Source: Stigmatella aurantiaca (lineage in GTDB: Bacteria > Myxococcota > Myxococcia > Myxococcales > Myxococcaceae). Taken from it: 64,000 nucleotides of DNA. The stretch's first letter is position 1. The number at the start of each line of letters is the position of its first letter. Below are positions 45,370 through 64,000 of this stretch, one piece after another. The position numbers and the translations under genes were made by a program. Under the pieces are notes generated by a model. It was not told the DNA's origin, did not search any database, and worked only from the letters and a program-made list of their open reading frames with translations. The stretch lies in assembly GCF_900109545.1 (NCBI RefSeq), contig NZ_FOAP01000001.1, positions 434,001-498,000 of the forward strand. Reading direction: 5' to 3'.

Positions 45370-45450
45370 ACGGCAAGGGGACTGGCTGCCTTTGACGGGC
45401 GGGTAGGGCTACACTCACGCCCGCTTCTCGAACCCTTGAGGGCCTGCTGT

Positions 45451-48400
45451 ATGAAAAGTCTCGCAGCGACCTATGCCATCCTGGGCAGCTTCCTCTGGGC
45501 TCCGGTGAGTTTGGCGGACACAGCTGAGCTCGCCACCACCGTGCAGAAGCGCTTCACCACGCAGGATGACTTCGCCCAGGGCAGTGCCTCGGGCCTCAAG
45601 CCCAGCGAGGCCACGCCCGGCCAACTCGAGCTCCAGTTCGGCCCGCCATACCTGTGGGTTGGCAATCCCAGCATGGGCTACGTCATCAAGACCGACGTGC
45701 GCACGGGCAGGCCCGTGGCCTGGTACCACTCCGTGCTGCTCAAGAACTGGGACCAGTCGGCCCCGGCGGTGAGCCCCCTGAGCAGTGGGTGCAATTACCC
45801 CTCCGTGGCGGCGGTGAACGCGGCCGGCGATGCCTTCGTCGTCAACCGCGGCAATTGCCCCGGAACGTATGCCTCCATCACGAAGTACGCGGGCTCGTTG
45901 CAGGCCTGCGTGGACCGCAATGGCAACGGGGTGATTGATACATCGTTCGACGAGGACGGCGACGGCACCATCAATCTGAAAAGTCCCCGCGAGTTTCCCG
46001 GCCAGGGCGACGAGTGCATTCTCTGGACGAAGAACTACGCGGATGTGGATGACCCGGGCCGCTCGCTCGTGGTGGACGCGGAGCAGAACGTCTGGGCCGC
46101 AGGCTATAAGACCGCCAAACTCTACAAGCTCAACGGCCAGACGGGTGCGGTGCTGCAGACCATCGACCTCAAGGCGGGAGCGGACGTGGCGGCGCAGATT
46201 CAGGGGCTGGCCATCGGGCCCGATGGTTTTCTCTACGCCTCGGACGCGTCGGCGGAGCGGCGGGTCCGGAAGATCGATCCCTCCCCTGACAACGGCATCT
46301 ACGTGGTGGATTCGGTCATCGCCCCGGTGCCCACCATGGGCATCAGCGTGGATGCCAGCGGCGCGGTGTGGGCGGGCGCTGAGTCCGACTCGGCCACCGG
46401 GCCGCTGCGCGTGGACTTCACGGCACACAGGGCCGATCCGGTAGGCAGTGGCTGCACGGGCCGTTCGCGCGCAACGGCGGTGGATGCCCAGGGCCGCGTC
46501 TGGGTGGCGTGCTGGTCCAGCCGGCGGCTGGTGGGAATCGGGCCGCATGGGGGTGTGCTGGGCATGTGGACGTTGGGCGAGCGTCCCGAGGGGGTCGCCG
46601 TGGATTCGAACGGGAAGATCTGGCTCAACTCCGGCGCCAGCTCCGCCTTGTGGAAGGTGGATCCGGCGGTGCCGCAGACCGTCCAGAGCTTCCTGGCGGG
46701 CACCACTCCGCTGGCGGTGGGGGACGTGACGGGCTACCAGCACCACCACTTCATCCGGAGCGAGGGCAGTTGGAGCGTGATTCACGACAGCGGCCAGGCC
46801 TCCAAGGCCTGGGGCCACGTCACCTGGAATACGGAAGCTCAGGGGGCCGAGCCGACTGGCAGCAGCATCACCGTACAGATCCGAGCGGCGAACACCCGGG
46901 AGGCCCTACCCTCCCTGGGCTTCAATACCGTGGCGAACAATCAGCCTGTCGAGGAAATCGAGATCAGTGGGCGTTTCATCGAGGTGAAGGTGTCTCTGCG
47001 GACGGGGAACTTCAGCGGCGCCCCGGTGCTCAGCGACCTGACGCTCTATTCGTTCAACCATCCCCCCGTGGCCCAGTGCCTGGCCCAGAATGTGTGTGCC
47101 GGTCCGGCGTGCGTGGCCGAGGCCCAGATCGACAACGGCTCGTACGATCTCGATGACGACAGCCTCTCCTATTCCTACTCGCCCGCAGGCCCTTATTCGA
47201 TTGGCCAGCGCACGGTGGAGCTCACGGTCTCCGACGGGAGCAAGCAGGACAGATGCTCTGCGGCCGTGCGCGTGCGGGATTGCGAGCCACCCTCGATCGT
47301 CTGCGCGGCGCCCTCGGTGTTCGAGTGTACGGGCAATGAGTCCGCTCAGGTAACGCCTGCGGGGGCTCAGGCGACGGACTCGTGCTCCGCGGTGAGCGTG
47401 AGCGGCCCGGGCGCGGCGGCGTACCCCCTGGGCAGCACGCCCCTGACGTACCAGGCACGGGATGCGGCGGGCAACACGGCCACCTGTAGCACCACGGTCG
47501 AGGTGCAGGACACGCTGGCTCCGTCGATTGACTGTCCCTCGCCCGTCACCGCCGAATGTGTGGCGGGAGGCGCATCGAGCGAGGGCGTGGGAGACGCGAT
47601 CGCGCGCGACCAATGCTCGCCCGTGGAGATGGTGCGCCCGGCGCCCGTACGGGTTCCGGTGGGCAGCGAGGTGGCCTTGACGTTCGCCGCGCAGGACACC
47701 TCCGGGAACAGGGCGGCTTGCTCCACCCCCTTCAAGGTGGAAGACACCCAGGCACCCACCGTCACGCTCAACGGGCAGGCTCTGGAGCGCGTGGAGTGTG
47801 GTTCGTCCTTCGGTGACGCGGGGGCCACGGCGAGCGATGTCTGCGCGGGCAACCTGAGCGCCCAGGTGGTGGCCACTGGCACCGTCAACCCCGCCCAGCT
47901 GGGAAGCTATTCCGTGCGCTACGGCGTGACGGATCCGGCTGGGAACCCGGCCGCTTCCGTCTCCCGCACGGTGGTGGTCGAAGACACCGTGGCCCCCGTT
48001 CTCGTGCTTTCGGGGGCAGCCCAGCAGATGCTGGAGTGTGGAGATGCCCACGTGGATCCGGGCGCTGCCGCCACGGATGTCTGCGCGGGTGACTTGACTC
48101 AGGCCGTGGTGCGCGGCGGCGCGCTCGATCCCCTGCAGCCCGGCCAGTACGTGCTGACGTACACCGTCGAGGATCCGTCCCAGAATGCAGCCGCCCCCGT
48201 GACGCGGACGGTCTCCGTGGCCGATACCCAGGCTCCGTCCCTGCTGCTCACGGGTTCAACCAACGTGCCCCTGGAATGTGGCTCCGCGTACATGGATCCC
48301 GGCGCTCAGGCGATGGACATGTGTGTGGGAGATCTCACCAGCGCCATCCATGTGCTGGGCTCCGTCGATGCCTTCACGCTGGGCGCCCAGACGCTGACTT

Positions 48401-50586
48401 ACCGGGTGGTGGATCTCTCGGGTAATGAGGCCTCGCCGGTGAGCCGCGTCATCACCGTGTCCGATACGCAGCCTCCCGTGGTGGCGCTGCGCGGCGCGGC
48501 CCAGGCCTCGCTGGAGTGTGGGGATGCCTTTGGGGATCCCGGTGCCAGTGCGCACGATGCCTGCGCCGGTGACCTGAGCGGGCAGATCTCCAAGACGGGC
48601 CAGGTGGATACGCGGAAGCCGGGGGCCTATGCGCTCCAGTACGGCGCCGTGGACGCCTCGGGCAACAGCACCGTGGCGACGCGAACGGTGACGGTGACGG
48701 ACTCGGCCCCCCCGGTTCTCCAACTGGTGGGACCGGCCTCGCTGGCGCAGGAGTGTGCCACGCCGTTCACCGACCCCTCGGCCACGGCGTTCGATGCCTG
48801 CCTGGGGGATGTGAGCCAGCGCATCACCGTCTTCGGCACGGTGAACACGGCCCAGCCGGGCGCCTACGTGCTGACCTACAACGCGGCGGATACCGTGGGG
48901 AACGCCGCGGTGCCCGTGCAGCGCACCGTGCAGGTGACGGACTCCGAGAAGCCCTCGCTCGTCCTCAAGGGCGTCAATCCCGTGGCCCTCGAGTGCAACC
49001 GGGATACGTACACCGAGCCGGGCGCGACGGCGGTGGATCGGTGTGCCGGGGACCTGTCGGCGTCCATCTCCATCCAGGGGGATGCCGTCAACCCCAGCAT
49101 CCCCCGGGAGTATGCTGTCACGTACCGGGCCGTGGATGGGGCGGGCAATGCCGCCACGGCGGTGCGCAACGTCCGCGTCCAGGACACGCTGGCCCCGTCG
49201 CTCTTCCTCAACGGTGCTTCCGCCCCGGTGCTGGAGTGCAAGGCGAGCACCTTCACCGACGCAGGCGCCACGGCGCAGGACCTGTGCTCTGGCAACCTGT
49301 CGGGCGCCATCACCGTCACGGGCAGCGTGAACACGGCCGAGCCGGGCGCCTACCCGGTGACCTACCGCGTGCAGGATGGCCAGGGCCTGTGGGCGGAGAA
49401 GACGCGGAGCGTGAGGGTGGCGGACACGCGCCGGCCGGTCATCACCTTGCTGGGCAGCGGCACGCCCGTGGTGGAGTGCACGCGCGGGACCTTCGTGGAC
49501 CCTGGCGCGACGGCCACGGACCTGTGCGCGGGAGACCTGTCCGGGAAGATCACCGTCACGGGCGCCTCGAAAATCACCGGACCGGGCACCTACCCCATCA
49601 CCTACAACGTGAAGGATCCGTCCGGGAACGCCGCGCTGACCGTCACGCGCACCGTCAAGGTCCAGGACACGCTGCCCCCGTCGATCACGGTCAACGGCGC
49701 GGCCAAGATGACCCTGGAGTGCAAGCAGGACACGTACACCGAGCTGGGCGCCACGGCGCAGGACGCATGCGACGGGCCGCTGACCTTCGCCACCTATGGC
49801 AACGTCAACACCCAGTCGGTGGCGGTCTACTCCGTGCAGTACCAGACCCACGACTCGAGTCACCGTTACGAGAGCGCCACGCGCACGGTGGAGGTGGTGG
49901 ACCGGCTGCCGCCCACGCTCACCCTCAACGGTCCCGTGGCCCTGCATCACGAGTGCGCGAGTAGCTCCTATGTCGATCCGGGCGCCACCGCGTCCGACGT
50001 CTGCTACGGGGAGCTGTCGTCCTCCGTGGTCATCGACCACAACGTGAATGCCTGGGTGCCCGCCACCTATAAGGTCACGCTCAACGTGCAGGATGGGACG
50101 GGCCTCAAGGCGCCCACGCTCACCCGCACGGTGACCGTGGCGGATACCCAGGCCCCGGTGCTGGAGTACCGCCAGGTGGTGCTGTCTCCGGCGAACCATG
50201 GGATGCACACGCTCTCGCTGGACAACTGCGCGACCGCCAATGACCGGTGCGATGGCTGGTCGGACATCAACACCGGGAACATCGTCTCCATCTACAGCGA
50301 CGAGCCGGAGGAGGCCCCGGGCGAGGGAGATGGTGCCACCCAGCAGGACATCGTCATCACCGGGAAGAACACCTTCAGCGTGCGAGCCGAGCGCCAGAGT
50401 GGGGGCAATGGGCGCGTCTACGGGGTGAACTTCACCCTCAAGGACAGGACCGGCAACACCCGCGCGGGCCTGTGCACGATCCAGGTTCCCGCCGACGCAG
50501 GCACGGCGGTCGATAATGGGCCCGGCAGTGGCTACACCGTGACGGCCCCAGCCGAGGCGCCTCTGGCAAGCCGCGTCACGCCTTGA
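45451..50586 (+). CDS. Secreted beta-propeller protein with HYR/DUF5011-like Ig repeats
   Basis: A 1711-residue protein with a cleavable signal peptide (about 1-22). Residues about 40-430 resemble an NHL/Vgb-type propeller (IGPDGFLYASDA, VDASGAVWAGAE, VDAQGRVWVACW, VDSNGKIWLNSG), and DRNGNGVIDTSFDEDGDG near 155 looks like a calcium loop. Two HYR-like domains follow (about 610-765), then ten Cys-containing DUF5011-like units with the mark ECxxxxxDPGA (about 770-1565), then a C-terminal domain shared with the next gene. Probably an extracellular adhesin or matrix protein. ATG 45451 has GAGGG upstream. No MYXO-CTERM anchor is seen. Confidence 0.88.
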   Translation: MKSLAATYAILGSFLWAPVSLADTAELATTVQKRFTTQDDFAQGSASGLKPSEATPGQLELQFGPPYLWVGNPSMGYVIKTDVRTGRPVAWYHSVLLKNWDQSAPAVSPLSSGCNYPSVAAVNAAGDAFVVNRGNCPGTYASITKYAGSLQACVDRNGNGVIDTSFDEDGDGTINLKSPREFPGQGDECILWTKNYADVDDPGRSLVVDAEQNVWAAGYKTAKLYKLNGQTGAVLQTIDLKAGADVAAQIQGLAIGPDGFLYASDASAERRVRKIDPSPDNGIYVVDSVIAPVPTMGISVDASGAVWAGAESDSATGPLRVDFTAHRADPVGSGCTGRSRATAVDAQGRVWVACWSSRRLVGIGPHGGVLGMWTLGERPEGVAVDSNGKIWLNSGASSALWKVDPAVPQTVQSFLAGTTPLAVGDVTGYQHHHFIRSEGSWSVIHDSGQASKAWGHVTWNTEAQGAEPTGSSITVQIRAANTREALPSLGFNTVANNQPVEEIEISGRFIEVKVSLRTGNFSGAPVLSDLTLYSFNHPPVAQCLAQNVCAGPACVAEAQIDNGSYDLDDDSLSYSYSPAGPYSIGQRTVELTVSDGSKQDRCSAAVRVRDCEPPSIVCAAPSVFECTGNESAQVTPAGAQATDSCSAVSVSGPGAAAYPLGSTPLTYQARDAAGNTATCSTTVEVQDTLAPSIDCPSPVTAECVAGGASSEGVGDAIARDQCSPVEMVRPAPVRVPVGSEVALTFAAQDTSGNRAACSTPFKVEDTQAPTVTLNGQALERVECGSSFGDAGATASDVCAGNLSAQVVATGTVNPAQLGSYSVRYGVTDPAGNPAASVSRTVVVEDTVAPVLVLSGAAQQMLECGDAHVDPGAAATDVCAGDLTQAVVRGGALDPLQPGQYVLTYTVEDPSQNAAAPVTRTVSVADTQAPSLLLTGSTNVPLECGSAYMDPGAQAMDMCVGDLTSAIHVLGSVDAFTLGAQTLTYRVVDLSGNEASPVSRVITVSDTQPPVVALRGAAQASLECGDAFGDPGASAHDACAGDLSGQISKTGQVDTRKPGAYALQYGAVDASGNSTVATRTVTVTDSAPPVLQLVGPASLAQECATPFTDPSATAFDACLGDVSQRITVFGTVNTAQPGAYVLTYNAADTVGNAAVPVQRTVQVTDSEKPSLVLKGVNPVALECNRDTYTEPGATAVDRCAGDLSASISIQGDAVNPSIPREYAVTYRAVDGAGNAATAVRNVRVQDTLAPSLFLNGASAPVLECKASTFTDAGATAQDLCSGNLSGAITVTGSVNTAEPGAYPVTYRVQDGQGLWAEKTRSVRVADTRRPVITLLGSGTPVVECTRGTFVDPGATATDLCAGDLSGKITVTGASKITGPGTYPITYNVKDPSGNAALTVTRTVKVQDTLPPSITVNGAAKMTLECKQDTYTELGATAQDACDGPLTFATYGNVNTQSVAVYSVQYQTHDSSHRYESATRTVEVVDRLPPTLTLNGPVALHHECASSSYVDPGATASDVCYGELSSSVVIDHNVNAWVPATYKVTLNVQDGTGLKAPTLTRTVTVADTQAPVLEYRQVVLSPANHGMHTLSLDNCATANDRCDGWSDINTGNIVSIYSDEPEEAPGEGDGATQQDIVITGKNTFSVRAERQSGGNGRVYGVNFTLKDRTGNTRAGLCTIQVPADAGTAVDNGPGSGYTVTAPAEAPLASRVTP
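47790..50150 (+). repeat. Ten Ig-like coding repeats, about 230-245 bp each
   Basis: Units carry the protein mark ECG..F.D.GA.A.D.C.G.L near their start and a (S/T)GN..A turn near the end. Divergence between units is higher than in the following gene. Confidence 0.8.
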
Positions 50587-51003: not shown

Positions 51004-54000
51004 ATGAAACCAATAGGCGTATGGGGAACTTCGCTGGTGCTGGCCGCGCTGGCGTCCAGTTCCTGCGAAAAGGAGCAGAGTGCGCCGCTGAAGCAGCCGA
51101 CCCCGGCGGCAGCGCGCACTGCTCATCAAGAGGTCAACTCCACCAAGAAGGTGCTGATTCTCGGCACCACTGTCACCGGCGGCGCGTCGAGCCGTGAGGC
51201 GCAGGCTGCGGCGAACATCGGCTATCCAGCGACGGTGGTCACTCCCGAGCAGTGGCGCGCGATGACGCCGGAGCAGTTCCAGGAGTACGCCGGTATCATC
51301 ATCGGCGACGCGGCGTGCCAGGGCGGCGAGAGCGCCTTCCAGGCCGCGGTCGACAACCGCAACATCTGGGGCGCCGCAGTCGACGGTAACGTGGTCATCA
51401 GCGGCTCGGACGCGACGAACAACGGTACGCCTCAGTTCATCGAGAACGTTGTCTCGTCCATCGTCGCCAAGGAGACTCGGACCGGTATGTACATCTCGCT
51501 GGGCTGCGCCTATCAGGACGCGGCCCCGGGAACGCCGGTGCCCCTGCTGGAGCCCTTCGGTGCGTTCACCGTGGCCGGCACGGGCTGCTATGCCAATGGT
51601 GGACACATCTTCCGGATGTACCCGGAAGAGCTGTCGGACGGCCTCTACGGCAATGATGGCGCGCTGAACGGGACCGGAGGCTGTGCCACGCGCGTGGTGT
51701 TCAGCAGCTACCCGGACAAGACGTTCGCGCCGGTGGCCATCGCCGTGGATGAGAGCGGCTCCTTGCCCAACTCGCGTGAGTACTGGGACTACCTCATGGA
51801 GGACCCGGATTCCTTCAAGACCATCAATGGCACGCCCTACATCCTGACGCAGGGCGCGATGGCGTACTCCACGGGTTGCGGTCAGGCCTCTGCGGATTCG
51901 TACGCTCAGTGCAATCAGGGCCCCGAGGGCAACGGCAAGCCGTCGACACAGCCAGGCATGCCCGCCGATAATTTTTGCTCGTTCTCCTGCCAGCAGCAGT
52001 GGTGCGGTGACGGTAATGTGGATGCGGAGCAGGGCGAAGAGTGTGATGACGGCTTCTTCAACGGCCGTACCCGTGACGCCAGCGGCACCATCGGTGCCTG
52101 CACCGCGTTCTGCAAGTTCCCCATCCTCGACACCGAGTCGCCTCCTGAAGCCCTCTGCAAGAACCTGGAGCTGGTCGCCGACCTGACGTGCGGCGCGGAC
52201 GGCAACGTCAACAATGGTTCGTGGGATCCGGATGAGAATTTGGTGGGCTGCAAGCAGAGCCCCATCGGTCCGTATGGGCCTGGCACCACCACCGTCACGC
52301 TGACGTGCACGGATACCGAGGGCAACACCGACTCGTGCACCGGCACCATCACGGTGCTCGACCAGAACAAGCCCACGCTGACCTTGGTGGGCAACAACGA
52401 GCAGCTCGAGTGCGCTCCGGGCACCTACACGGATCCGGGCGCCACGGCTGCGGATGTCTGTGAAGGGGACGTGACCGGCGCGATCACCGTGAGCGGCACG
52501 GTGAACCCGGGCGCGGTGGGCCAGTACGAGCTGACCTACAACGTGGAGGACTCCTCGGGCAACGCGGCCACGCCAGTCAAGCGGACCGTGGCGGTGTCCG
52601 ATACGAAGGCGCCGACGCTGGCGCTCAAGGGGCTCGCCAACGACATCGCCGAGTGCGCCTCGCCGTACGCCGATCCGGGCGCTACGGCCAGCGACGTGTG
52701 CGCGGGCAACCTCGACGCGGCTATCACCCAGACTGGCTCGGTGAATACCTCCGCGGTGGGCACCTCCGTGGTGCGGTACAACGTGCAGGACCCCGAGGGG
52801 AACAAGGCCCCGGAAATCAGCCGCATCGTGCAGGTGAAGGACACGCTCAAGCCGGTGGTGACGGTGAATGGTCCGCTCACCCAGAAGTTCGAGTGCGGCA
52901 GCGGCGAGTTCAATGACCTGGGCGCCACGGCCACCGATGCGTGCTCCACGGAGCTGGATCTCGATCAGAATGCCGTCGTGAATCCGAACCAGCCGGGCTC
53001 GGTGACCATCACCTACAGCGCCACGGACCCGTCCGGGAACACGGGCGTTTCGGCCACGGGCCGCACCGTCACGGTGGAGGACACCCTGCCGCCGACGCTG
53101 ACGCTGGCGCAGGGCAATTCGACCCTGGAGTGCGGCGATTCGTACACGGACCCAGGTGCCACCGCCAACGACCAGTGCGCGGGCAACCTGACCGCTTCCA
53201 TCCAGAAGACGGGCAGCATCAACAACAAGCAGCTCGGCACGCAGAAGCTCACCTACACGGTGTCGGATGCGAGCGGCCACAGCATCACGTCCGACCGCAC
53301 GGTCACCGTCAGCGACACGCTCAAGCCGGTCGTCACGGTGACTGGCGAGCTGAACGCGAAGATCGAGTGCGGCAGCGGCCCGTTCAACGACCCGGGTGCT
53401 ACCGCCAATGACGCCTGCGAGGGCGTGCTGCCTGCGGTGCCCAGCGAGACGGTGGATCCGAGCGTGCCGGGAGCGGTGACGGTCAGCTACAAGGCCACCG
53501 ACTCCTCGGGCAACGTGGGCGTGTCGGCCACGGGCCGCACCGTCACGGTGGAGGACACCCTGGCGCCGACGCTGGCCCTGGAGCCGGGCGCCTCGACCCT
53601 GGAGTGCGGCAATCCGTACGCCGACCCCGGCGCCAAGGCCAACGATCAGTGCTTCGGTGACCTGACGGCCGCCATCCAGAAGACCGGTTCCATCAACAGC
53701 AAGCAGCTGGGTGACCAGACCCTCTCCTACACCGTGCAGGATCCGGGCGGCCGCACCGCGGGCCCCGTCACCCGGACGGTGAAGGTGAATGACACCCTGG
53801 CCCCGGCCATCACGGTCAACGGGCCTGCCGACCAGACGTTCGAGTGCGGCTCCACCTACGTGGATCCGGGCGCCACGGCCAACGACGCGTGCGAGGATGA
53901 CCTGACGGACAAGATTGTCGCCACGCGCACGCAGGTGCCGGGCCAGCCGGGCACCTTCACCATCAGCTACAGCGTGAAGGACCTCTCGGGCAACGAGGCC

Positions 54001-57000
54001 AACGCGCCTGCGGCCCGTACGGTGCGGTCCAATGACAACACGCCGCCGGTGCTGGCGCTCCAGGGCCCTGCCGTTCTGCCTCTTGAGTGCGCCACGCCGT
54101 ACGCGGACCCCGGTGCCATCGCCAGCGACGTCTGCACCGATGACATCAACGACCGCATCACCGTGACGGGCAGCATCAACAACAAGCTGCTCGCCGCGCA
54201 GACGCTGACCTACAACGTGACGGACATCGCGGGCCTGAGCGCGCCGCCGGTCACCCGTCAGGTGAACGTCTCCGACACGCAGAAGCCGGTGGTGACGGTG
54301 ACCGGTCCCAGCAACGTGAACATCGAGTGCGGCAACGGCCCGTTCAACGATCCGGGCGCCACCGCCAATGACGCCTGCGAGGGCGTGCTGGACGTGCTGC
54401 CGAGCACCGAGGTGGACTCAAGCGTGCCGGGGCCGGTGACCGTCACCTACACGGCCACCGACTCATCGGGCAACGTGGGCGTGTCGGCCACGGGCCGCAC
54501 TGTCAACGTGCAAGACACCCTGCCGCCGGTCCTGGCGCTCAACGGCCCTGCCCAAATGGCGCTGGAGTGTGCCAACCCCTTCGCCGATCCGGGCGCCAAG
54601 GCCAACGACCAGTGCGCTGGCGACCTGACCGATGCCATCGTCACCACGGGCACGGTGAACAACAAGCAGCTGGGCAGCCACGTGCTGGGCTACAGCGTGA
54701 CGGACCCCTCGGGCCGCACCGCTTCGGCCAGCCGCACGGTGGAGGTGTCTGACACCCTGGCCCCGGCTATCACCGTCCAGGGCCCGCTGGAGACCACCTT
54801 CGAGTGCGGCTCGCCCTACGTGGACCAGGGCGCGACGGCCGAGGACGCCTGTGCTGGCGCCGTGCCGGTCACCTCCAACCAGGTGGGGGACACCAGCTCG
54901 CCGGGCTCCTTCATCATCAGCTACAGCGCGCAGGACCCCTCGGGCAACAGCGTCACCTCTCCGGTGACGCGCAAGGTGACCGTGAACGACAACGAGGCGC
55001 CCACCCTGGCGCTCCGTGGCGCGGCCACCGAAGCGCTCGAGTGCGGCAACCCCTACGCGGACCCCGGCGCTGTCGCCAGCGACGTGTGCTTCGGCGATGT
55101 AACGAACCGCATCACCGTGGAGGGCACCATCAACAACAAGCTGCTCACCGCGCAGACGCTCACCTACAAGGTGACGGACCCGGCCGGGCAGAGCGCGCCG
55201 CCGGTGACCCGCACGGTGAATGTCGGTGACTCGCTCGCCCCGGTCATCACGGTGACGGGCCCGCTGGCCGCCACCATCGAGTGCGGCGGAGGCTCGTTCA
55301 ACGATCCGGGCGCCACGGCCGACGACAAGTGCATCGGGCCGGTTCCCGCGCTGCCCACCACCGTCGTGAACCCTGGCTCCGAGGGCACCTACAGCATCAA
55401 GTACACGGCCCAGGACAACTCCGGAAACACGGCGACGTCGGATGCCAGCCGCATCGTGACGGTGGCTGACACCCTGCCGCCTACGCTGGCGCTCAACGGG
55501 CCTGCGGCGCTGGGCCTGGAGTGCGCCACTCCGTTCGCCGACCCGGGCGCCACGGCCAACGACCAGTGCGCGGGCGATGTGAGCAATCGCATCCAGACCT
55601 CGGGCACCATCGACAACAAGCAGCTCACGGCCCAGACGATCACCTACTCCGTGACGGACCTCGGCGGCCGTGCCGCCGCGCCGGTCAGCCGCACGGTGAC
55701 GGTGTCCGACACGCTGGCGCCTACCCTGGCCCTCAACGGGGGCGCCACCGAGACGTTCGAGTGTGGCGCGGACTATGTGGACCCGGGCGCTTCGGCCAAC
55801 GATGCGTGCGCCGGGGATGTGTCCGACCGCGTGGTGCCGGTGCGCACCCAGGTGCCGGGGGGCTTCACCATCACCTACAGCGTGACGGATCCGTCGGGCA
55901 ACAGCGCCGCCGCGCCGGTGACCCGCACGGTGAAGTCGGATGACAACACGCCGCCGGTGCTCGCCCTCAACGGGGCTGCCAACCTGCCGCTGGAGTGCGG
56001 CAATCCGTTCACGGACCCGGGCGCCATCGCCGAGGACGTGTGCGACGACAACCTGAACATCACGGTGACGGGCACGGTGAACCCCGCAGTGCCCGCCGAC
56101 TACACGCTGACCTACAACGTGACGGACTCGGCGGCCAACACGGCCACGCCGGTGACTCGCACGGTGTCGGTGCAGGACACCCAGGCGCCGACGCTGGCGC
56201 TCAATGGGGCTGCCACGATGGATCTGGAGTGCGCCACGCCCTTTAACGACCCGGGCGCCACGGCCAACGACCTGTGCGCGGGCGACCTGTCGGGCTCCAT
56301 CCAGGCGTCGGGCACCATCGACAACAAGAAGCTCACGGCCCAGACGATCACCTACACCGTGGCGGACTCCGGGGGCCATGCGGCCGCGCCGGTCAGCCGC
56401 ACGGTGGCGGTGAGCGACACGCTGAAGCCGGTCGTGACGGTGAACGGTCCTGCCTCGCTGGCGGTGGAGTGCGGTGACGACGGGTTCAATGACCCGGGCG
56501 CCACGGCGGACGATGCCTGCGCGGGCTCGCTGCCTGCGGTGCCGAGCACCACGGTGAACCCGAACGTGCCGGGCGCAGTGACCATCACCTACAGCGCCAC
56601 GGACCCGTCCGGGAACGTGGGCGTGGGCAACACCGGCCGTACCGTCACGGTGGAGGACACCCTGGCGCCGGAGCTGGCGCTGGTGGGCCCTGCCAACCAG
56701 CCGCTGGAGTGCGGTACGCCGTACGCCGACCCGGGTGCTACCGCCAACGACCAGTGCGCGGGGGACCTGACGGGCGCCATCGAGGCGAAGGGCGACATCA
56801 ACAACAAGCAGCTGGGCGCTCAGACGGTCACCTACACCGTGCAGGATCCGGGCGGCCGTACCGCCGGTCCGGTCAGCCGCACGGTGACGGTGGGCGACAC
56901 CCTGGCTCCGGCTATCGCGGTCAACGGTCCGCTCGACCAGGCGTTTGAGTGCGGTTCCACCTACGTGGATCCGGGCGCCACGGCCAACGACCTGTGCGCC

Positions 57001-59565
57001 GATGACCTGACGGCGAACATCGTCGCCACGCGTACTCCCATCGCGGGCCAGCCGGGCTCCTTCACCATCAGCTACAGCGTGACGGACCCGTCGGGCAACA
57101 CGGCCACCTCCACCACCAGCCGCACGGTGCACGTGGAGGACAACGTGCCCCCGGTGCTGGCGCTCAAGGGCAATGCGACCCAGGCGCTGGAGTGCGGTTC
57201 TCCGTACGCGGATCCGGGCGCCACGGCGATGGACGCCTGCGTGGGCGACCTCACGGCCGCCATCACCCGCTCGGGCGATCTCAACCCCAACAAGACGGGC
57301 AGCTACACGCTCATCTACAACGTGTCGGATCCGTCCGGTCAGAGCGCGCCGTCGGTCACCCGCCAGGTGAACGTCAACGACACGCTGGCCCCGAACATCA
57401 ACGTCCAGGGCCCCGTCTCCGACACCTTCGAGTGCGGCGGCGAGTACGCGGACCCGGGCGCCACGGCCAACGACCAGTGCGATGGCCCCCTGCCACAGAG
57501 TGCCATCATCGCCACGCGCACCACGATCCCGGGTCAGCCGGGCAACTTCACCATCACATACAGCGTGCAGGATCAGGCCGGCAACGTGGCCACCTCGCCC
57601 GTGACCCGTACGGTGAAGGTGAACGATGACCTGCCCCCCAGCATCGCCCTCAATGGCGAGGTGTACATGACGGTCGAGTGCTCGGAGGCCTTCGTGGATC
57701 CGGGTGCCAAGGCGGTCGACCTGTGCGCCGGCGACGTGCCGGTGACGGTGTCGGGCACCGTGGACACGACCAAGGCGGGCAACTACGAGCTGCGCTACAG
57801 CGCCCAGGACATGGCCGGGAACACCTCGGCCACGGTCACCCGCACGGTGCAGGTGAACGACTCGCAGCCCCCGGCCATCACCCTGCTGGGTGAGAACCCG
57901 ATGAACCTGGAGTGCAAGCGCGACACCTACGTGGAGCCCGGCGCCACGGCCTTCGACCTGTGCTCGGGTTCGTCCACTGTCGTCTCGTCCGAGAACATCG
58001 ACGAGTCGGTGCCGGGGTACTACGCGGTCAACTACACCGCCACGGACAAGAGCGGTCGGCAGAGCACCGCCATCCGCGACGTGAACGTGGTGGACACGCT
58101 GCCGCCTGCCTTCGAGACGCCGGCCCCGCTGACGCTCGAGTGCGCTATCGACACGCTCAACGATCCGCTGCCCAAGCTTACCGACCTGTGCAAGGGCGAT
58201 ATCACAGCGAACGTTATTCGCACCGATACGTTGTCCGCCGATGACCTGCGCAACGATGGCACCTACAAAATCGTGTACCAGGGTGACGACTTCCGGAATG
58301 GGGGGGCGCCGGTCATCATTGAGCGCGAGGTGGTAGTGCAGGACACTACGCCTCCGGTCATCACCCTCACGGGCGAGGCTAACCCGATCATCGAGTGCGG
58401 CACCCAGCCTGCCCTGGATGATGTAGTGGTTAAGGATCTTTGCCAGCGCGAGCCCGGAGATGTGAGCTGGACGCGGAGCCCTAATCCGCTGCCGAGCGTG
58501 CCGGGTGACTACGTGGTGAAGTACACGGCTAAGGACAGCCTCGGAAACACCACGACGGGTGACGGAGTGCTGTCTCGCACGGTGACCATCGTCGACACCA
58601 AGGAGCCGGAGCTCTCCATCGTTGACCAGGACATCGTCTACGAGTGCTCGGGCCACGCCGCGGGCAACGAGTGGGTGCCGCCTTCCGTCATAGCGAAGGA
58701 CCTCTGCGAGGGTAACCTGCCGGTGCACAAGTACAACACGGGCGACGACGATGGCGACGGCATCCCCGGCTCCATCGATGAGGACGACTTCGGTCCTGGC
58801 CCGACCACCGAGGTGGAAGGTCTCTACTATGTGCAGTACCTGGCGTGGGACGAGGCCTACAACATCAAGGGCGCCATCCTCTCCGTGTACGTGAAGGACA
58901 CCATCAAGCCGAACCTGGCCCTGCTGGGCGAGGAGTCGGTCCAGGTGCAGTGCTTCCACCCGATGGGCGACGAGGAGGATCCCTCGCCGTACGTCGACGA
59001 GGGCGCCATCGGCGAGGACATCTGCTACGGCGACGTGACTCCGTCGGTGCAGACCTTCAGCAACCTGAACAAGCAGATCCCCGGCACCTACACCATCGAG
59101 TACCAGGTGCGTGACGGTGCGTACAACGCCGCGGATCCGCTGTCGCGTACGGTGGAAGTCATCGACAACATCGCTCCCTCGGTGGTGGGCCGTCCGGCCA
59201 TCATCCAGAACCCGGACCCGACCTTCATGCGGCCGGTGGATCTGACCGAGTGCGCCGAGGCCGTGGACTCCTGCGAGGGCTACATGGACATCAATGGTCT
59301 GGGCTTCATCGAGTCCATCACCAGCAACGAGCCGGGCGACGACTCGAACGACATCGTCATCGAGACGAACAGCCGGTTCCTGGTCCGCGCCAAGCCGAAC
59401 TCCAACGGCACGGATCGCGTGTACGACGTGCACTTCACCATCAGCGACACCTCGGGCAACGTGACGTCGGCCCCGGCTGGCACCTGCCAGGTCCGCGTGC
59501 CTGCGAACCCCTTCGCCCCGGTGACGGTCCAGAAGAAGGGCTCGGGCGTCCTGGCGGGCCGCTAG
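51004..59565 (+). CDS. Giant extracellular Ig-repeat protein (about 28 DUF5011-like units)
   Basis: A 2853-residue protein. The N-terminal signal (about 1-20) ends in ASSSC, a weak lipobox. Residues about 45-320 form an alpha/beta domain of unknown type (KKVLILGTTVTGG, EYAGIIIGDAACQGG, NVVISGSDATNN). A myxobacterial Cys-rich motif (CGDGNVDAEQGEECDDG, about 337-353) and one HYR-like unit follow. From about 465 to 2720 come 28 Cys-pair Ig-like units with ECxxxxxDPGATAND.C, the last four degenerate. The C-terminal domain is shared with the previous gene. Probably a surface or matrix adhesin; no enzyme motif is seen. Confidence 0.88.
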   Translation: MKPIGVWGTSLVLAALASSSCEKEQSAPLKQPTPAAARTAHQEVNSTKKVLILGTTVTGGASSREAQAAANIGYPATVVTPEQWRAMTPEQFQEYAGIIIGDAACQGGESAFQAAVDNRNIWGAAVDGNVVISGSDATNNGTPQFIENVVSSIVAKETRTGMYISLGCAYQDAAPGTPVPLLEPFGAFTVAGTGCYANGGHIFRMYPEELSDGLYGNDGALNGTGGCATRVVFSSYPDKTFAPVAIAVDESGSLPNSREYWDYLMEDPDSFKTINGTPYILTQGAMAYSTGCGQASADSYAQCNQGPEGNGKPSTQPGMPADNFCSFSCQQQWCGDGNVDAEQGEECDDGFFNGRTRDASGTIGACTAFCKFPILDTESPPEALCKNLELVADLTCGADGNVNNGSWDPDENLVGCKQSPIGPYGPGTTTVTLTCTDTEGNTDSCTGTITVLDQNKPTLTLVGNNEQLECAPGTYTDPGATAADVCEGDVTGAITVSGTVNPGAVGQYELTYNVEDSSGNAATPVKRTVAVSDTKAPTLALKGLANDIAECASPYADPGATASDVCAGNLDAAITQTGSVNTSAVGTSVVRYNVQDPEGNKAPEISRIVQVKDTLKPVVTVNGPLTQKFECGSGEFNDLGATATDACSTELDLDQNAVVNPNQPGSVTITYSATDPSGNTGVSATGRTVTVEDTLPPTLTLAQGNSTLECGDSYTDPGATANDQCAGNLTASIQKTGSINNKQLGTQKLTYTVSDASGHSITSDRTVTVSDTLKPVVTVTGELNAKIECGSGPFNDPGATANDACEGVLPAVPSETVDPSVPGAVTVSYKATDSSGNVGVSATGRTVTVEDTLAPTLALEPGASTLECGNPYADPGAKANDQCFGDLTAAIQKTGSINSKQLGDQTLSYTVQDPGGRTAGPVTRTVKVNDTLAPAITVNGPADQTFECGSTYVDPGATANDACEDDLTDKIVATRTQVPGQPGTFTISYSVKDLSGNEANAPAARTVRSNDNTPPVLALQGPAVLPLECATPYADPGAIASDVCTDDINDRITVTGSINNKLLAAQTLTYNVTDIAGLSAPPVTRQVNVSDTQKPVVTVTGPSNVNIECGNGPFNDPGATANDACEGVLDVLPSTEVDSSVPGPVTVTYTATDSSGNVGVSATGRTVNVQDTLPPVLALNGPAQMALECANPFADPGAKANDQCAGDLTDAIVTTGTVNNKQLGSHVLGYSVTDPSGRTASASRTVEVSDTLAPAITVQGPLETTFECGSPYVDQGATAEDACAGAVPVTSNQVGDTSSPGSFIISYSAQDPSGNSVTSPVTRKVTVNDNEAPTLALRGAATEALECGNPYADPGAVASDVCFGDVTNRITVEGTINNKLLTAQTLTYKVTDPAGQSAPPVTRTVNVGDSLAPVITVTGPLAATIECGGGSFNDPGATADDKCIGPVPALPTTVVNPGSEGTYSIKYTAQDNSGNTATSDASRIVTVADTLPPTLALNGPAALGLECATPFADPGATANDQCAGDVSNRIQTSGTIDNKQLTAQTITYSVTDLGGRAAAPVSRTVTVSDTLAPTLALNGGATETFECGADYVDPGASANDACAGDVSDRVVPVRTQVPGGFTITYSVTDPSGNSAAAPVTRTVKSDDNTPPVLALNGAANLPLECGNPFTDPGAIAEDVCDDNLNITVTGTVNPAVPADYTLTYNVTDSAANTATPVTRTVSVQDTQAPTLALNGAATMDLECATPFNDPGATANDLCAGDLSGSIQASGTIDNKKLTAQTITYTVADSGGHAAAPVSRTVAVSDTLKPVVTVNGPASLAVECGDDGFNDPGATADDACAGSLPAVPSTTVNPNVPGAVTITYSATDPSGNVGVGNTGRTVTVEDTLAPELALVGPANQPLECGTPYADPGATANDQCAGDLTGAIEAKGDINNKQLGAQTVTYTVQDPGGRTAGPVSRTVTVGDTLAPAIAVNGPLDQAFECGSTYVDPGATANDLCADDLTANIVATRTPIAGQPGSFTISYSVTDPSGNTATSTTSRTVHVEDNVPPVLALKGNATQALECGSPYADPGATAMDACVGDLTAAITRSGDLNPNKTGSYTLIYNVSDPSGQSAPSVTRQVNVNDTLAPNINVQGPVSDTFECGGEYADPGATANDQCDGPLPQSAIIATRTTIPGQPGNFTITYSVQDQAGNVATSPVTRTVKVNDDLPPSIALNGEVYMTVECSEAFVDPGAKAVDLCAGDVPVTVSGTVDTTKAGNYELRYSAQDMAGNTSATVTRTVQVNDSQPPAITLLGENPMNLECKRDTYVEPGATAFDLCSGSSTVVSSENIDESVPGYYAVNYTATDKSGRQSTAIRDVNVVDTLPPAFETPAPLTLECAIDTLNDPLPKLTDLCKGDITANVIRTDTLSADDLRNDGTYKIVYQGDDFRNGGAPVIIEREVVVQDTTPPVITLTGEANPIIECGTQPALDDVVVKDLCQREPGDVSWTRSPNPLPSVPGDYVVKYTAKDSLGNTTTGDGVLSRTVTIVDTKEPELSIVDQDIVYECSGHAAGNEWVPPSVIAKDLCEGNLPVHKYNTGDDDGDGIPGSIDEDDFGPGPTTEVEGLYYVQYLAWDEAYNIKGAILSVYVKDTIKPNLALLGEESVQVQCFHPMGDEEDPSPYVDEGAIGEDICYGDVTPSVQTFSNLNKQIPGTYTIEYQVRDGAYNAADPLSRTVEVIDNIAPSVVGRPAIIQNPDPTFMRPVDLTECAEAVDSCEGYMDINGLGFIESITSNEPGDDSNDIVIETNSRFLVRAKPNSNGTDRVYDVHFTISDTSGNVTSAPAGTCQVRVPANPFAPVTVQKKGSGVLAGR
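52400..59150 (+). repeat. About 28 Ig-like coding repeats with four-unit higher-order cassettes
   Basis: Single units are about 230-245 bp. From unit 4 on, four unit types recur in fixed order, so equivalent codons fall at 53149, 54106, 55060, 56014 and 57211: spacings 957, 954, 954, then 957 plus one extra 240-bp unit. Confidence 0.88.
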
Positions 59566-59594
59566 GCCGCACGGAATCCTGACTCTGAAGTTCA

Positions 59595-59637
59595 GACGGC
59601 CGGTGCCCTCTTTCCGGGGCACCGGCCGTCTCTTTTT
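59595..59637 (+). terminator. Rho-independent terminator after giant Ig-repeat gene
   Basis: A 14-bp stem (59595-59608 with 59617-59630), loop of eight bases, followed by TCTTTTT. It shares the stem core CGGCCGGTG with the terminator at 50614-50648. Confidence 0.92.
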
Positions 59638-59710
59638 GGGGCACGGGAGGAGAGACGAGTGCGGCTTCAGCCCTCCGCCGCCTACCGGTGACAGCTGGGT
59701 CCCCCACGGC

Positions 59711-59863
59711 ATGCGCAAGCGGAGGCCCGATGAGAACCCCCATCGGCGGCGCGTCAGCGCGCGGGTGGCCTACCGCCCTTCAGGAACTCCGCGCGGGCTG
59801 CGTTTCCGGGTGCGCCTGCGGGCGCGGGATGTGGTGAGCCTGCTCCGCTATCTGGGGGCTTAG
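59711..59863 (+). CDS. Possible Arg-rich small protein
   Basis: A 50-residue open frame with about a quarter Arg, ending in RLRARDVVSLLRYLGA. It begins after the terminator and its stop overlaps that of the convergent SRPBCC gene. No family recognised; it may be chance in high-GC DNA. Confidence 0.25.
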   Translation: MRKRRPDENPHRRRVSARVAYRPSGTPRGLRFRVRLRARDVVSLLRYLGA

Positions 59864-60470: not shown

Positions 60471-63400
60471 CTACTGCCGGCGCTTCCGGGTCAGCAGCGC
60501 CGAGAGCGCCAGTCCCATCATCGCCAGCAGGCCCGGTCCCCCGCTGGTCGAGGTGCATCCATTGCCCAGGAGCGCCCAGTCGCTCGGAGGCGTCAGGACG
60601 TTCCAGGTAGCCGAGGCGGGCGTCGGGTCCACGTTGCCCGCGCTGTCCCGGGCACGCACCTGGAGCGAGTGGCTGCCCTCGGCAAGCCCCGGGAAGGTGG
60701 GGGCCTCCTCGCAAGGCGTGAACGCGGCGTTGTCGAGGCTGCACTCGTACGTCACGTTCGTTTCCGTGGCGTTGAACCGGAACGAGGCATCGGCCTCGAA
60801 GGTGTCGCCCGAGGGGCCCGAGACGATGGAGGTGTCGGGGGCGCTCGTGTCGACCACGAAGTTCACCGGGCCGGAGGGGGCGCTGACATTGCCGGCCAGG
60901 TCCGAGGAGGTCGCGGTGACACGGTAGGGGCCGTCCTGTAGCGGCGTGGGGGGCGTGAGCGTCCACTGGCCCGCGGCATCCGCCGCCGCGGTGCCCAGCA
61001 CGGCTCCGTTGAGGGTCACCTCCACCGTGCTGAGCGGCTCGGCGGTTCCGGAGATGGCAGGCGTGGTGTTGTTCGTCACCGAGCCATCGGCGGGGGTGGT
61101 CACCACGGGGGCCTGGGGGGCGGTGGTGTCGATGGTGAAGGTGTTGACGTTGGACGACAGGCTCGCGTTGCCGGCCAGGGTGGTGGCCACGGCGCTCACC
61201 TGGTAGGTGCCCTCCTGAAGGGGCGAGGAAGGCGTGAAGCTCCAGTTGCCACTGGCGTCCGCGGTGGTGGTGCCCAGCTCGACGTTGCCCAGGTAGAGCG
61301 TCACCGTGATGTTGGCGTCGGCGGTTCCCGTGAACGCAGGCGTGGTGTCGCTCGTCACCGACTGGTGCGCGGGGGTGAGCACGACCGGCGCCGTCGGCAC
61401 GGTGGTGTCGACGACGAAGGTGTGGGTGTTGGACTCGGGGCCCGTCTGGCCCGCCGCATCGGTGGCGGTGGCCTTCACCTGGTGGGTGTCCGCGGAGAGC
61501 CCCACGGTGGGCGTGAAGCTCCAGTTGCCGCTGGCGTCCGCTTGGGTGGTGCCCACCGGAGAGCCATCGACGATGACGGTGACGGTGGCGCCCGCCTCGG
61601 CGGTGCCCGAGTACGTGGGCGTGTTGTCGCTGAGGACGGCGCCATCCGCGGGGGTGATGACCACGGGAGCGGCGGGGGCGGTGGTGTCCACGATGAAGGT
61701 GTGGGTGTTGGACTCAGGGCTGACGTTGCCCACGGAGTCCGTGGCGGTGGCCTTCACCGTGTGCGAGCCATCGGCCAGGGCGGTGGTGGGCGTCAGGCTC
61801 CAGGTGCCGCTGGCGTTGGCGGTGGTGGTGCCCACCGGAGTGCCATCCACGATGACGGTGACGGTGGTGCCCGCATCCGCGGTGCCCGAGTAGCTGGGCG
61901 TGGTGTCCATGAGGACGGCGCCCTGGGCGGGGGCCACGATGACGGGGGCCGCCGGGGCCGTGGTGTCGATGGTGAAGGTGTTGACGTTGGACGGAGGGCT
62001 GACGTTGCCCGCCGCATCGGAGGCCGTGGCCCTCACGGTGTGTGGGCCGTCCGCCAGGGGTACGGTGGGGGTGAAGCTCCAGGCGCCGCTGGTGTTGGCG
62101 GTGGCCGTCCCAGCGGGGGTGCCGTCCACGATGACGGTGACGGTGGCGCCGGCCTCGGCGGTACCCGAGTAGGTGGGCGTGCTGTCGCTCAGGGTGGCGC
62201 CATCCGCGGGGGTGATGACCACGGGAGCGGCGGGCGCGAGGGTGTCGATGAGGAACAGATGGGTGTTGGACTCAGGGCTGACGTTGCCCACGGAGTCCGT
62301 GGCGGTGGCCTTCACCGTGTGCGAGCCATCCAGCAAGGGCGCGGTGGGGGTGAAGCTCCAGTTGCCGCTGGCATCCGCCGGAGCCGTGCCAATGGGAACG
62401 CCATCGACAATGACGGTGACGGTGGTGTTCGCATCCGCGGTGCCCGAGTAGGTGGGCGTGTTGTCACCGAGAACAGCACCGTTGGCGGGGGTGACGATGA
62501 CGGGGGCCGCCGCGGCGGTGGTGTCGATGGTGAAGGTGTTGGTGTTGGACTCAGGGCTGAGGTTGCCCGCCGCATCGGTGGCGGTGGCCTTCACGGTGTG
62601 AGCGCCGTCCGCCAGGGGCACGGTGGGGGTGAAGCTCCAGGCGCCGCTGGCGTTGGCGGTGACCGTTCCGGCGGGGGTGCCATCCACGATGACGGTGACG
62701 GTGGCGCCTGCCTCGGCGGTACCCGAGTAGGTGGGCGTGCTGTCGCTCAGGGTGGCACCGTTCGACGGAGCGATGACCACCGGGGCCGCAGGCGCGGTGG
62801 TGTCGACGATGAAGGTGTTGGTGTTGGAGGGAGGGCTGACGTTGCCCACGGAGTCAGTGGCCGTGGCCCTCACCGTGTGCGAGCCGTCCAGTAGCGGCGC
62901 GGTAGGCGTGAGGCTCCAATTGCCGCTGGCATCGGCGGTGACGGTGCCCACGGGGCTGCCATCGACGATGACGGTGACGGTGGAGCCCGCCTCGGCGGTG
63001 CCCGAGTAGGTAGGCGTGGTGTCCGTGAGGATGGCGCCATTGGCGGGAGCCGTGACGGCCGGAGCGGCGGGAGCCGCGGTATCGACGATGAAGGTGTTGG
63101 TGTTGGACTCAGGGCTCGTGTTGCCCGCCGCATCGGTGGCCGTGGCCTTCACGGTGTGAGGGCCGTCCAGCAGAGGCGCGGTGGGGGTGAAGCTCCAGGC
63201 GCCACTGGCATTGGCGGTGGTGGTGCCAGCGGGAATGCCGTCCACGATGACGGTGACGGTGGAGTTGGCCTCGGCAGTGCCCGAGTAGGTAGGCGTGTTG
63301 TCGCCGGTGGTGGACCCATTGGCCGGGGTGGTGACGACTGGGGCCGCCGGGGCCGTGGTGTCCACGATGAAGGTGTTGGTGTTGGACTGAGGACCGGTAT

Positions 63401-64000
63401 TGCCCACGGAGTCGGTGGCCGTGGCCCTCACCGTGTGAGTCCCATCGGCCAAGGGCGTGGTGGGCGTGAAGCTCCAGGCCCCGCTGGCGTTGGCGGTGGT
63501 GGTGCCTACCGGAGAGCCATCGACGATGACGGTGACGGTGGAGTTGGCCTCGGCAGTGCCCGAGTAGGTGGGCGTGTTGTCGCCGGTGGTGGACCCATTG
63601 GCCGGGGTGGTGACGACCGGGGCCGCCGGGGCCGTGGTGTCCACGATGAAGGTGTTGGTGTTGGACGGGGCGCTGACGTTGCCCACAGCGTCGGTGGCGG
63701 TGGCGCTCACGGTGTGAGAGCCGTCCAGCAGAGGCGCGGTGGGGGTGAAGCTCCAGGCACCACTGGCGTTGGCGGTGGTGGTGCCAGCGGGAATGCCGTC
63801 CACGATGACGGTGACGGTGGAGTTGGCTTCGGCAGTGCCCGAGTAGGTAGGCGTGTTGTCGCCGGTGGTGGACCCATTGGCCGGGGTGGTGACGACTGGG
63901 GCCGCCGGGGCCGTGGTGTCCACGATGAAGGTGTTGGTGTTGGACTGAGGACCGGTATTGCCCACGGAGTCGGTGGCCGTGGCCCTCACCGTGTGAGTCC
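60471..64000 (-). CDS. Ig-like repeat surface protein with MYXO-CTERM tail, N-terminus outside window
   Basis: At least 1176 residues are visible; the frame runs off the window end inside a repeat, so the start and signal peptide are missing. Eleven full Ig-like units of 93 residues (APAAPVV..PANG, TPTYSGTAEA, TVTVIVDG.P.GT) are followed by one different domain (TFEADASFRFNATETNVTYECSLD, with two Cys) and a C-terminal GC, a hydrophobic helix (GLLAMMGLALSALL) and RKRR, a MYXO-CTERM-like sorting tag for surface export. Probably an adhesin or cell-surface stalk. A 10-bp hairpin follows the stop. Confidence 0.9.
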   Translation of the reverse strand, partial: THTVRATATDSVGNTGPQSNTNTFIVDTTAPAAPVVTTPANGSTTGDNTPTYSGTAEANSTVTVIVDGIPAGTTTANASGAWSFTPTAPLLDGSHTVSATATDAVGNVSAPSNTNTFIVDTTAPAAPVVTTPANGSTTGDNTPTYSGTAEANSTVTVIVDGSPVGTTTANASGAWSFTPTTPLADGTHTVRATATDSVGNTGPQSNTNTFIVDTTAPAAPVVTTPANGSTTGDNTPTYSGTAEANSTVTVIVDGIPAGTTTANASGAWSFTPTAPLLDGPHTVKATATDAAGNTSPESNTNTFIVDTAAPAAPAVTAPANGAILTDTTPTYSGTAEAGSTVTVIVDGSPVGTVTADASGNWSLTPTAPLLDGSHTVRATATDSVGNVSPPSNTNTFIVDTTAPAAPVVIAPSNGATLSDSTPTYSGTAEAGATVTVIVDGTPAGTVTANASGAWSFTPTVPLADGAHTVKATATDAAGNLSPESNTNTFTIDTTAAAAPVIVTPANGAVLGDNTPTYSGTADANTTVTVIVDGVPIGTAPADASGNWSFTPTAPLLDGSHTVKATATDSVGNVSPESNTHLFLIDTLAPAAPVVITPADGATLSDSTPTYSGTAEAGATVTVIVDGTPAGTATANTSGAWSFTPTVPLADGPHTVRATASDAAGNVSPPSNVNTFTIDTTAPAAPVIVAPAQGAVLMDTTPSYSGTADAGTTVTVIVDGTPVGTTTANASGTWSLTPTTALADGSHTVKATATDSVGNVSPESNTHTFIVDTTAPAAPVVITPADGAVLSDNTPTYSGTAEAGATVTVIVDGSPVGTTQADASGNWSFTPTVGLSADTHQVKATATDAAGQTGPESNTHTFVVDTTVPTAPVVLTPAHQSVTSDTTPAFTGTADANITVTLYLGNVELGTTTADASGNWSFTPSSPLQEGTYQVSAVATTLAGNASLSSNVNTFTIDTTAPQAPVVTTPADGSVTNNTTPAISGTAEPLSTVEVTLNGAVLGTAAADAAGQWTLTPPTPLQDGPYRVTATSSDLAGNVSAPSGPVNFVVDTSAPDTSIVSGPSGDTFEADASFRFNATETNVTYECSLDNAAFTPCEEAPTFPGLAEGSHSLQVRARDSAGNVDPTPASATWNVLTPPSDWALLGNGCTSTSGGPGLLAMMGLALSALLTRKRRQ
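61000..64000 (-). repeat. Tandem 279-bp coding repeats
   Basis: The mark for APAAPVV recurs every 279 bp (93 codons), e.g. the same motif at 63361, 63640 and 63919. Within 63165-64000 two blocks 558 bp apart are nearly identical. Confidence 0.92.

Follow-up and report, generated by a model that had tools for sequence, protein, structure and literature searches.

The window analysed here, a stretch of 64,000 nucleotides of Stigmatella aurantiaca DNA, carries three giant surface genes within 18.6 kb (Table 1), the last of which runs off the window end. Gene A is found upstream of gene B in the related genomes G1, G4 and G5 as well, and is recognised there by its head in G6 and G20. A four-unit period is absent from its array, where the lag-4 value was reached in 1771 of 5000 shuffles. 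The C-terminal end of gene A resembles, by eye, that of gene B.

Table 1. Features of the surface gene locus and of the paralogous C locus; positions are those of the window unless another locus is named.
Feature	Position	Strand	Basis
Gene A, propeller-like head, HYR and PF16403 units	45436..50586	+	Pfam
Gene B, 2853-aa surface protein with cassettes	51004..59565	+	open frame
Signal sequence, candidate lipoprotein Cys seen by eye, then alpha/beta head and Cys-rich stretch	51004..52128	+	translation
HYR-like unit	52129..52359	+	HYR match, best stretch aa 425-451, below cut-off in scan of N-terminal 469 aa
Units 1-2, outside the four cassette types	52360..52839	+	
Units 3-4, I-L1 pair	52840..53313	+	tandem with units 5-6, period 474 by Tandem Repeats Finder
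Units 5-7, I-L1-F	53314..54033	+	
Units 8-11, cassette L2-I-L1-F	54034..54987	+	
Units 12-15, cassette L2-I-L1-F	54988..55938	+	70% DNA identity to units 8-11
Units 16-20, five-unit block L2-(17)-I-L1-F	55939..57138	+	
Unit 17, extra unit, 240 bases	56176..56415	+	later part like unit 14 in the gene B of S. aurantiaca only
Units 21-22, L2 then F-like, end of typed array	57139..57624	+	
Units 23-29, which do not follow the cassette order, and C-terminal tail	57625..59562	+	positions 23-29 matched in G1, G4, G5
Third giant Ig-repeat gene, Big_13, ~93-aa units	60471-63998	-	MYXO-CTERM match over cut-off
Tandem C genes, ice-binding-like adhesive C-terminal anchor	L009 2603-15357	-	PF20597, scanned in one

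Gene B matches the Pfam family PF16403 (Bact_surface_Ig-like) in 25 stretches, with a score of 1066.7 bits against a cut-off of 27. Counted from linker to linker, of the DTxxP type, the protein has 29 units, the last one irregular, and not 28 as proposed in an earlier sequence-only reading. If the array were a Ca2+-dependent rigid extender, these linkers would bind the Ca2+ of a stiff rod. Each of the 29 units contains exactly two cysteines. At the N-terminus, a hydrophobic stretch is followed by SSSC, which was read by eye as a candidate lipobox Cys, and by a head of approximately 350 amino acids that is Cys-rich at its end. Compared with the orthologues in G1 and G4, the gene shows a dN/dS of 0.31-0.37. 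From the domain family, the Cys pairs and the start of the protein we infer that the product is exported, stiff and probably lipid-anchored, i.e., a long surface stalk carrying a head. For cassette units 8-11, an alignment of five blocks yielded an AlphaFold2 model of no use, with a pLDDT of 39. On the minus strand an open frame of 1751 codons runs over gene B (window 54463-59718); it is probably a by-product of GC-rich codon use.

The head was matched in 18 of the 59 genomes searched, S. aurantiaca included, some of these matches being weak and confined to the Cys-rich end. A search of the genome contigs with the alignment A1 returned 24 loci, a scan of the contigs with the head alone returned no relative, and nothing in the phage or plasmid collections matched it. 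The AlphaFold2 model of residues 21-379 has a mean pLDDT of 66.9. Its best structural match is a ThuA-like protein (Z 7.0, 168 residues aligned, rmsd 4.1), which lies within the usual background, and Foldseek yielded no match to the model at E 0.001. A class I glutamine amidotransferase-like or ThuA-like fold is a candidate assignment at most, with alpha/beta matches at background level. A Pfam scan of the N-terminal 469 residues listed HYR alone. Relatives of the head (window 51064-52140, plus strand) with 35-42% identity occur in Actinomycetota, Chloroflexi and an uncultured archaeon.

Within the stalk, units were assigned by eye, from sequence and order, to four types: I (units 3, 5, 9, 13, 18), L1 (4, 6, 10, 14, 17, 19), F (7, 11, 15, 20, 22) and L2 (8, 12, 16, 21). 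The typed array of 20 units reads I L1 I L1 F L2 I L1 F L2 I L1 F L2 L1 I L1 F L2 F, and its grammar is [I-L1][F-L2], i.e., a two-domain level inside a four-domain level. This is in good agreement with the sequence-only reading, which had described an order L-I-L-F over units 4-20: the order is present four times, with unit 17 as one extra unit of 240 bases (56176-56415). Its reference codons at 53149, 54106, 55060, 56014 and 57211 lie in frame, all encode the D of DPGA, in units 4, 8, 12, 16 and 21, and the spacings of 957, 954, 954 and 1197 (957+240) bases are exact. The single L type, however, splits into two kinds, since unit 4 is L1 and units 8, 12 and 16 are L2. The range given, 53090-58160, has to be shifted as well: the typed array extends from unit 3 (52840) to unit 22 (57624), and 58160 reaches into other unit types. 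As for the motifs, IECGxGPFNDPGA with a GVSATGRTV end is exact in two of four I units (5 and 9), with variants in 13 and 18. The F units 7, 11, 15 and 20 all carry FEC and all lead into a DN linker, three have DPGA (unit 11 has DQGA), and the TISYSV end is exact in units 7 and 20 but not in the other two. The four-domain period is confirmed, and the main points of the observation are exact.

The period appears without any type labels. For units 3-16, a range chosen after the units had been inspected, mean identity is 41.9% at lag 1, 52.9% at lag 2, 40.9% at lag 3, 61.2% at lag 4 and 57.6% at lag 8, and none of 20,000 shuffled orders reached the lag-4 value. The same holds for units 3-21 without unit 17 (0 of 20,000), and for units 1-24 the value was reached in 13 of 20,000 shuffles. 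Lag 2 is likewise raised, and units 3-4 and 5-6 form a tandem I-L1 pair. Maximum-likelihood trees were built from units 1-24, units 25-29 being omitted from both lag and tree tests. They recover the I units (support 94/98) and the L1 units (79/81), reject a single clade of F units together with unit 22 (p 0.022), and neither recover nor reject an L2 clade (p 0.33). The expected grouping of like types is therefore borne out for I and L1 only, and the like-type tree is blurred. Forcing the neighbours of a cassette into a clade was rejected in three out of three cassettes (p 1.4e-4, 6e-6 and 2e-60); a tree in which neighbours rather than every fourth unit group together, the outcome that the sequence-only reading had named as speaking against it, did not appear. 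Gene B shows both properties of a higher-order (super-) repeat, a fixed multi-unit lag and the joining of like positions instead of neighbours. Chance as source of the lag-4 signal was rejected by shuffles and trees.

Neighbouring units are unlike. None of the 23 adjacent pairs of gene B units reaches at least 60% identity, compared to 28 of 253 non-adjacent pairs. In nine related arrays, which are not independent of each other, the numbers are 2 of 160 and 150 of 1446. Copying by blocks would keep neighbours unlike. The rule fails in the Big_13 gene, where adjacent units are 73% identical.

Cassette number was compared between species and paralogues, with one genome per species. In G1, G4 and G5, gene B keeps all 29 units in unchanged order, unit 17 included, so that the unit number is constant among four species. 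The best match is the unit of equal number for all 29 units in G1, for 27 in G4 and for 28 in G5. From this conservation in the three nearer orthologues it follows that the growth of the array is ancient. The three cassettes compared are 68-72% identical in DNA (57-63% in protein), which shows that their copying was not recent. The single-unit insertion of the sequence-only reading does break the period, but unit 17 is old and common to all three nearer orthologues. Mis-assembly as source of the array was rejected, the genome of G5 being one contig; that of G4 consists of two.

More remote copies were found in G6 (Hyalangium versicolor, L059) and G20, with a head 50% identical to that of S. 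aurantiaca in both. We take them as syntenic orthologues of gene B because the gene A head lies upstream in both, at a distance of approximately 6 kb. For these copies, types were assigned with profiles built from the genes B of S. aurantiaca, G1, G4 and G5, which makes the profiles circular for those four. The typed arrays, in which dots and some assignments are weak, read I L1 I L1 I. F L2 I L1 F L2. L1 L1 F L2 F in L059 and I L1 I L1 I L1 F L2 I L1 F L2.. L1 F L2 F in G20_x. Both comprise 18 units versus 20 in S. aurantiaca, with one I-L1 pair more, i.e., three such pairs in a row, and one F-L2-I-L1 block fewer. The two arrays also show an elevated lag-4 value (reached by 24 and 14 of 5000 shuffles). 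When units are aligned one by one, L059 has a gap of four units and two additional ones, and G20_x a gap of two units; as like types are interchangeable, the identity of the missing units is ambiguous. A further array, G6_z, shows the lag-2 period only (lag 2 reached by 3, lag 4 by 924 of 5000 shuffles). Likely syntenic genes B also exist in G2, with the head 1.8 kb from the first base of its contig and the gene pointing at that end, and in G3, where a frame of 174 aa contains only 98 aa of the head.

Head and array recur at a second place. In S. aurantiaca, contig 9 carries two C genes, C9a and C9b, which share both with gene B and whose anchors are 97% identical to each other. The anchors of the two are 76-78% identical to those of the four C genes of G4 and G5; in gene B, this C-terminal domain was not found by Pfam. 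B and C genes together number three in S. aurantiaca, in G4 and in G5, and lie approximately 870 kb apart in the latter two, and a genome search with the head gave a single match in G1, with no C copy seen. Counting alignments over 60% of the query that do not overlap, S. aurantiaca shares 9 ORFs upstream and 1 downstream of the C locus with G4, and 11 and 1 with G5. The locus is thus syntenic in these three genomes and older than their split. Its arrays differ in unit number. C1 of G4 and G5 holds units 1-17, G4_C2 units 1, 2 and 11-24 (without 3-10), and G5_C2 units 1, 2 and 15-24 (without 3-14), each with end units in addition, so that the syntenic G4_C2 and G5_C2 differ by exactly one cassette. 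C9a passes from unit 1 to unit 21, then to 25 and a different set, and this difference is not a multiple of four. In C9b the lag-4 signal is weaker (reached by 75 of 5000 shuffles).

Although the C locus is old, the genes resemble each other within genomes. Heads are 89% identical between gene B and C9b in S. aurantiaca, 94% between G4_B and C1 and 88% between G5_B and C1; between orthologues the values are 73% (S. aurantiaca and G4) and 87% (G4 and G5), close to those of gene A for the same species pairs (74% and 87%). The arrays are 95% identical within G4 and within G5, and 92% between G4_B and G5_B. B and C genes group by genome or genome group, and a clade of B genes was rejected with p 6e-100 for the heads and 9e-5 for units 1-16. 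Within-genome likeness above orthologue likeness, together with a duplication older than the species split, characterises concerted evolution, and gene B and its dispersed paralogues appear to evolve in this way, in register, by gene conversion. The excess is clear for S. aurantiaca versus G4 and for G4. The case is weakest for the G5 heads, where the excess is slight to negligible (88% within versus 87% to the G4 orthologue), and for the S. aurantiaca array compared with G1, where there is none (90% to C9b, 90% to G1 B). Smaller patches occur inside gene B. In a window of 60 bases, unit 17 is 93% identical in DNA to unit 14 of the same gene and 48-54% identical to unit 17 of C9b, G1, G4 and G5; its overall likeness of 78% to unit 14 stems partly from this later patch, which is unique to the gene B of S. 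aurantiaca. A weaker case is unit 9, with unit 5 as the source. Both gene conversion and the original copying have shaped the likeness seen now. As a separate observation, synonymous divergence between species is about half as high in the array (window 52840-57378, plus strand) as in the head: 0.39 and 0.69 for S. aurantiaca and G4, 0.17 and 0.31 for S. aurantiaca and G1, and 0.20 and 0.49 for G4 and G5.

Implementing all facts, we consider it quite likely that the stalk array was grown stepwise by block recombination and was then subject to in-register gene conversion with dispersed paralogues. In a first step, two domain types would have formed the I-L1 pair, and tandem copies of this pair would have arisen. 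Next, I-L1 would have been joined by a diverged F-L2 pair, and the resulting four-domain unit (I-L1-F-L2 in rotation) would have been gained or lost whenever units of like type, spaced by one cassette, recombined. We infer unequal recombination as the process and also the order of these two steps. At the gene B locus, the order has been fixed since before the split of S. aurantiaca, G1, G4 and G5, and the sequence would meanwhile have been overwritten in register by conversion between gene B and its dispersed paralogues. Growth by copying of four-domain blocks, as the sequence-only reading had it, is hence right in kind and partly supported, by the grouping of I and L1 and by the rejected neighbour clades, but incomplete, since it leaves out the two-domain level, the age of the growth and the overlay of gene conversion.

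Other histories have to be weighed against this. Growth by single units in tandem, the ordinary mode, might be read from the odd unit 17, which breaks the period, yet within units 3-16 every lag from 2 to 10, except 3 and 5, gives a higher likeness than that between neighbours, and the rejection of neighbour clades in all three cassettes makes this mode extremely improbable. It is also conceivable that units arose singly and converged, the lag-4 likeness being due to conversion between like-type units alone. Conversion patches do exist, from unit 14 into unit 17 and, more weakly, from unit 5 into unit 9. Such a process gives no reason for a period of four, whereas block copying yields it, and a strict four-type order over some 20 units has been kept in three orthologues and is recognisable in two remoter ones; we regard it as improbable.

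Alternatively, B and C genes could be alike within genomes because gene B was duplicated recently and separately in each species. The tree alone, with its grouping by genome or genome group, would fit, and so would the single match in G1. This origin is nevertheless hard to reconcile with a C locus that lies in the same surroundings in S. aurantiaca, G4 and G5, and with a C anchor absent from gene B by Pfam and 76-78% identical across the C genes of these genomes, so we give it little credence. Block recombination followed by in-register conversion is the reading we retain. Selection may have favoured blocks over single units on account of the unlike neighbours themselves: for the Acinetobacter BAP, it was argued that unlike neighbours reduce misfolding and slippage (PMC4647330).

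Several known systems resemble gene B in part. The super-repeats of titin contain domains in a fixed multi-domain order, and mgpC of Mycoplasma genitalium recombines with repeats elsewhere in the genome. Titin and nebulin share with gene B a fixed multi-domain order copied in blocks; gene B differs in being bacterial, in its size of 2853 aa, in its periods of two and four, and in PF16403 domains with a Cys pair each. Recombination of mgpC serves variation, and the trace in gene B is one of in-register homogenisation of head and array. The likeness lies in mgpC being an adhesin gene of variable sequence (PMC2169797). Acinetobacter BAP is likewise a giant Gram-negative surface protein with Ig-like modules of 80-110 aa in several lettered types, yet its domain families are different, and no strict four-type order is described in the cited sections (PMC4647330). 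Region II of the Marinomonas adhesin MpAFP is also an array of Ig-like extender domains, consisting of approximately 120 copies of one identical unit (PMC4083281), as opposed to four types in gene B. Among the matches listed from the open-access literature, with few subscription journals, no bacterial Ig protein with a super-repeat of four types appeared. Domain-block duplication as such is already known: domain repeats often expand several domains at once, nebulin by seven, and bacterial Ig-like repeats are named as a prokaryote case of repeat expansion in Bjorklund 2006 (PMC1553488). Gene B is a clear new bacterial example with an unusually readable history.

From a biological point of view, the steps of array growth, i.e., the pair, the pair of pairs and the gain and loss of cassettes, can be read from living relatives. 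As a speculative reading, to which we assign a rather low probability, the cassette might be a device for lengthening and shortening the stalk that hardly ever pairs like domains, and in-register conversion might keep the gene set alike, so that it is strain-matched and species-distinct as self-recognition or a matrix would need. For myxobacteria, to whose multicellular life surface proteins matter, the finding adds a case of giant repeat genes homogenised within a genome.
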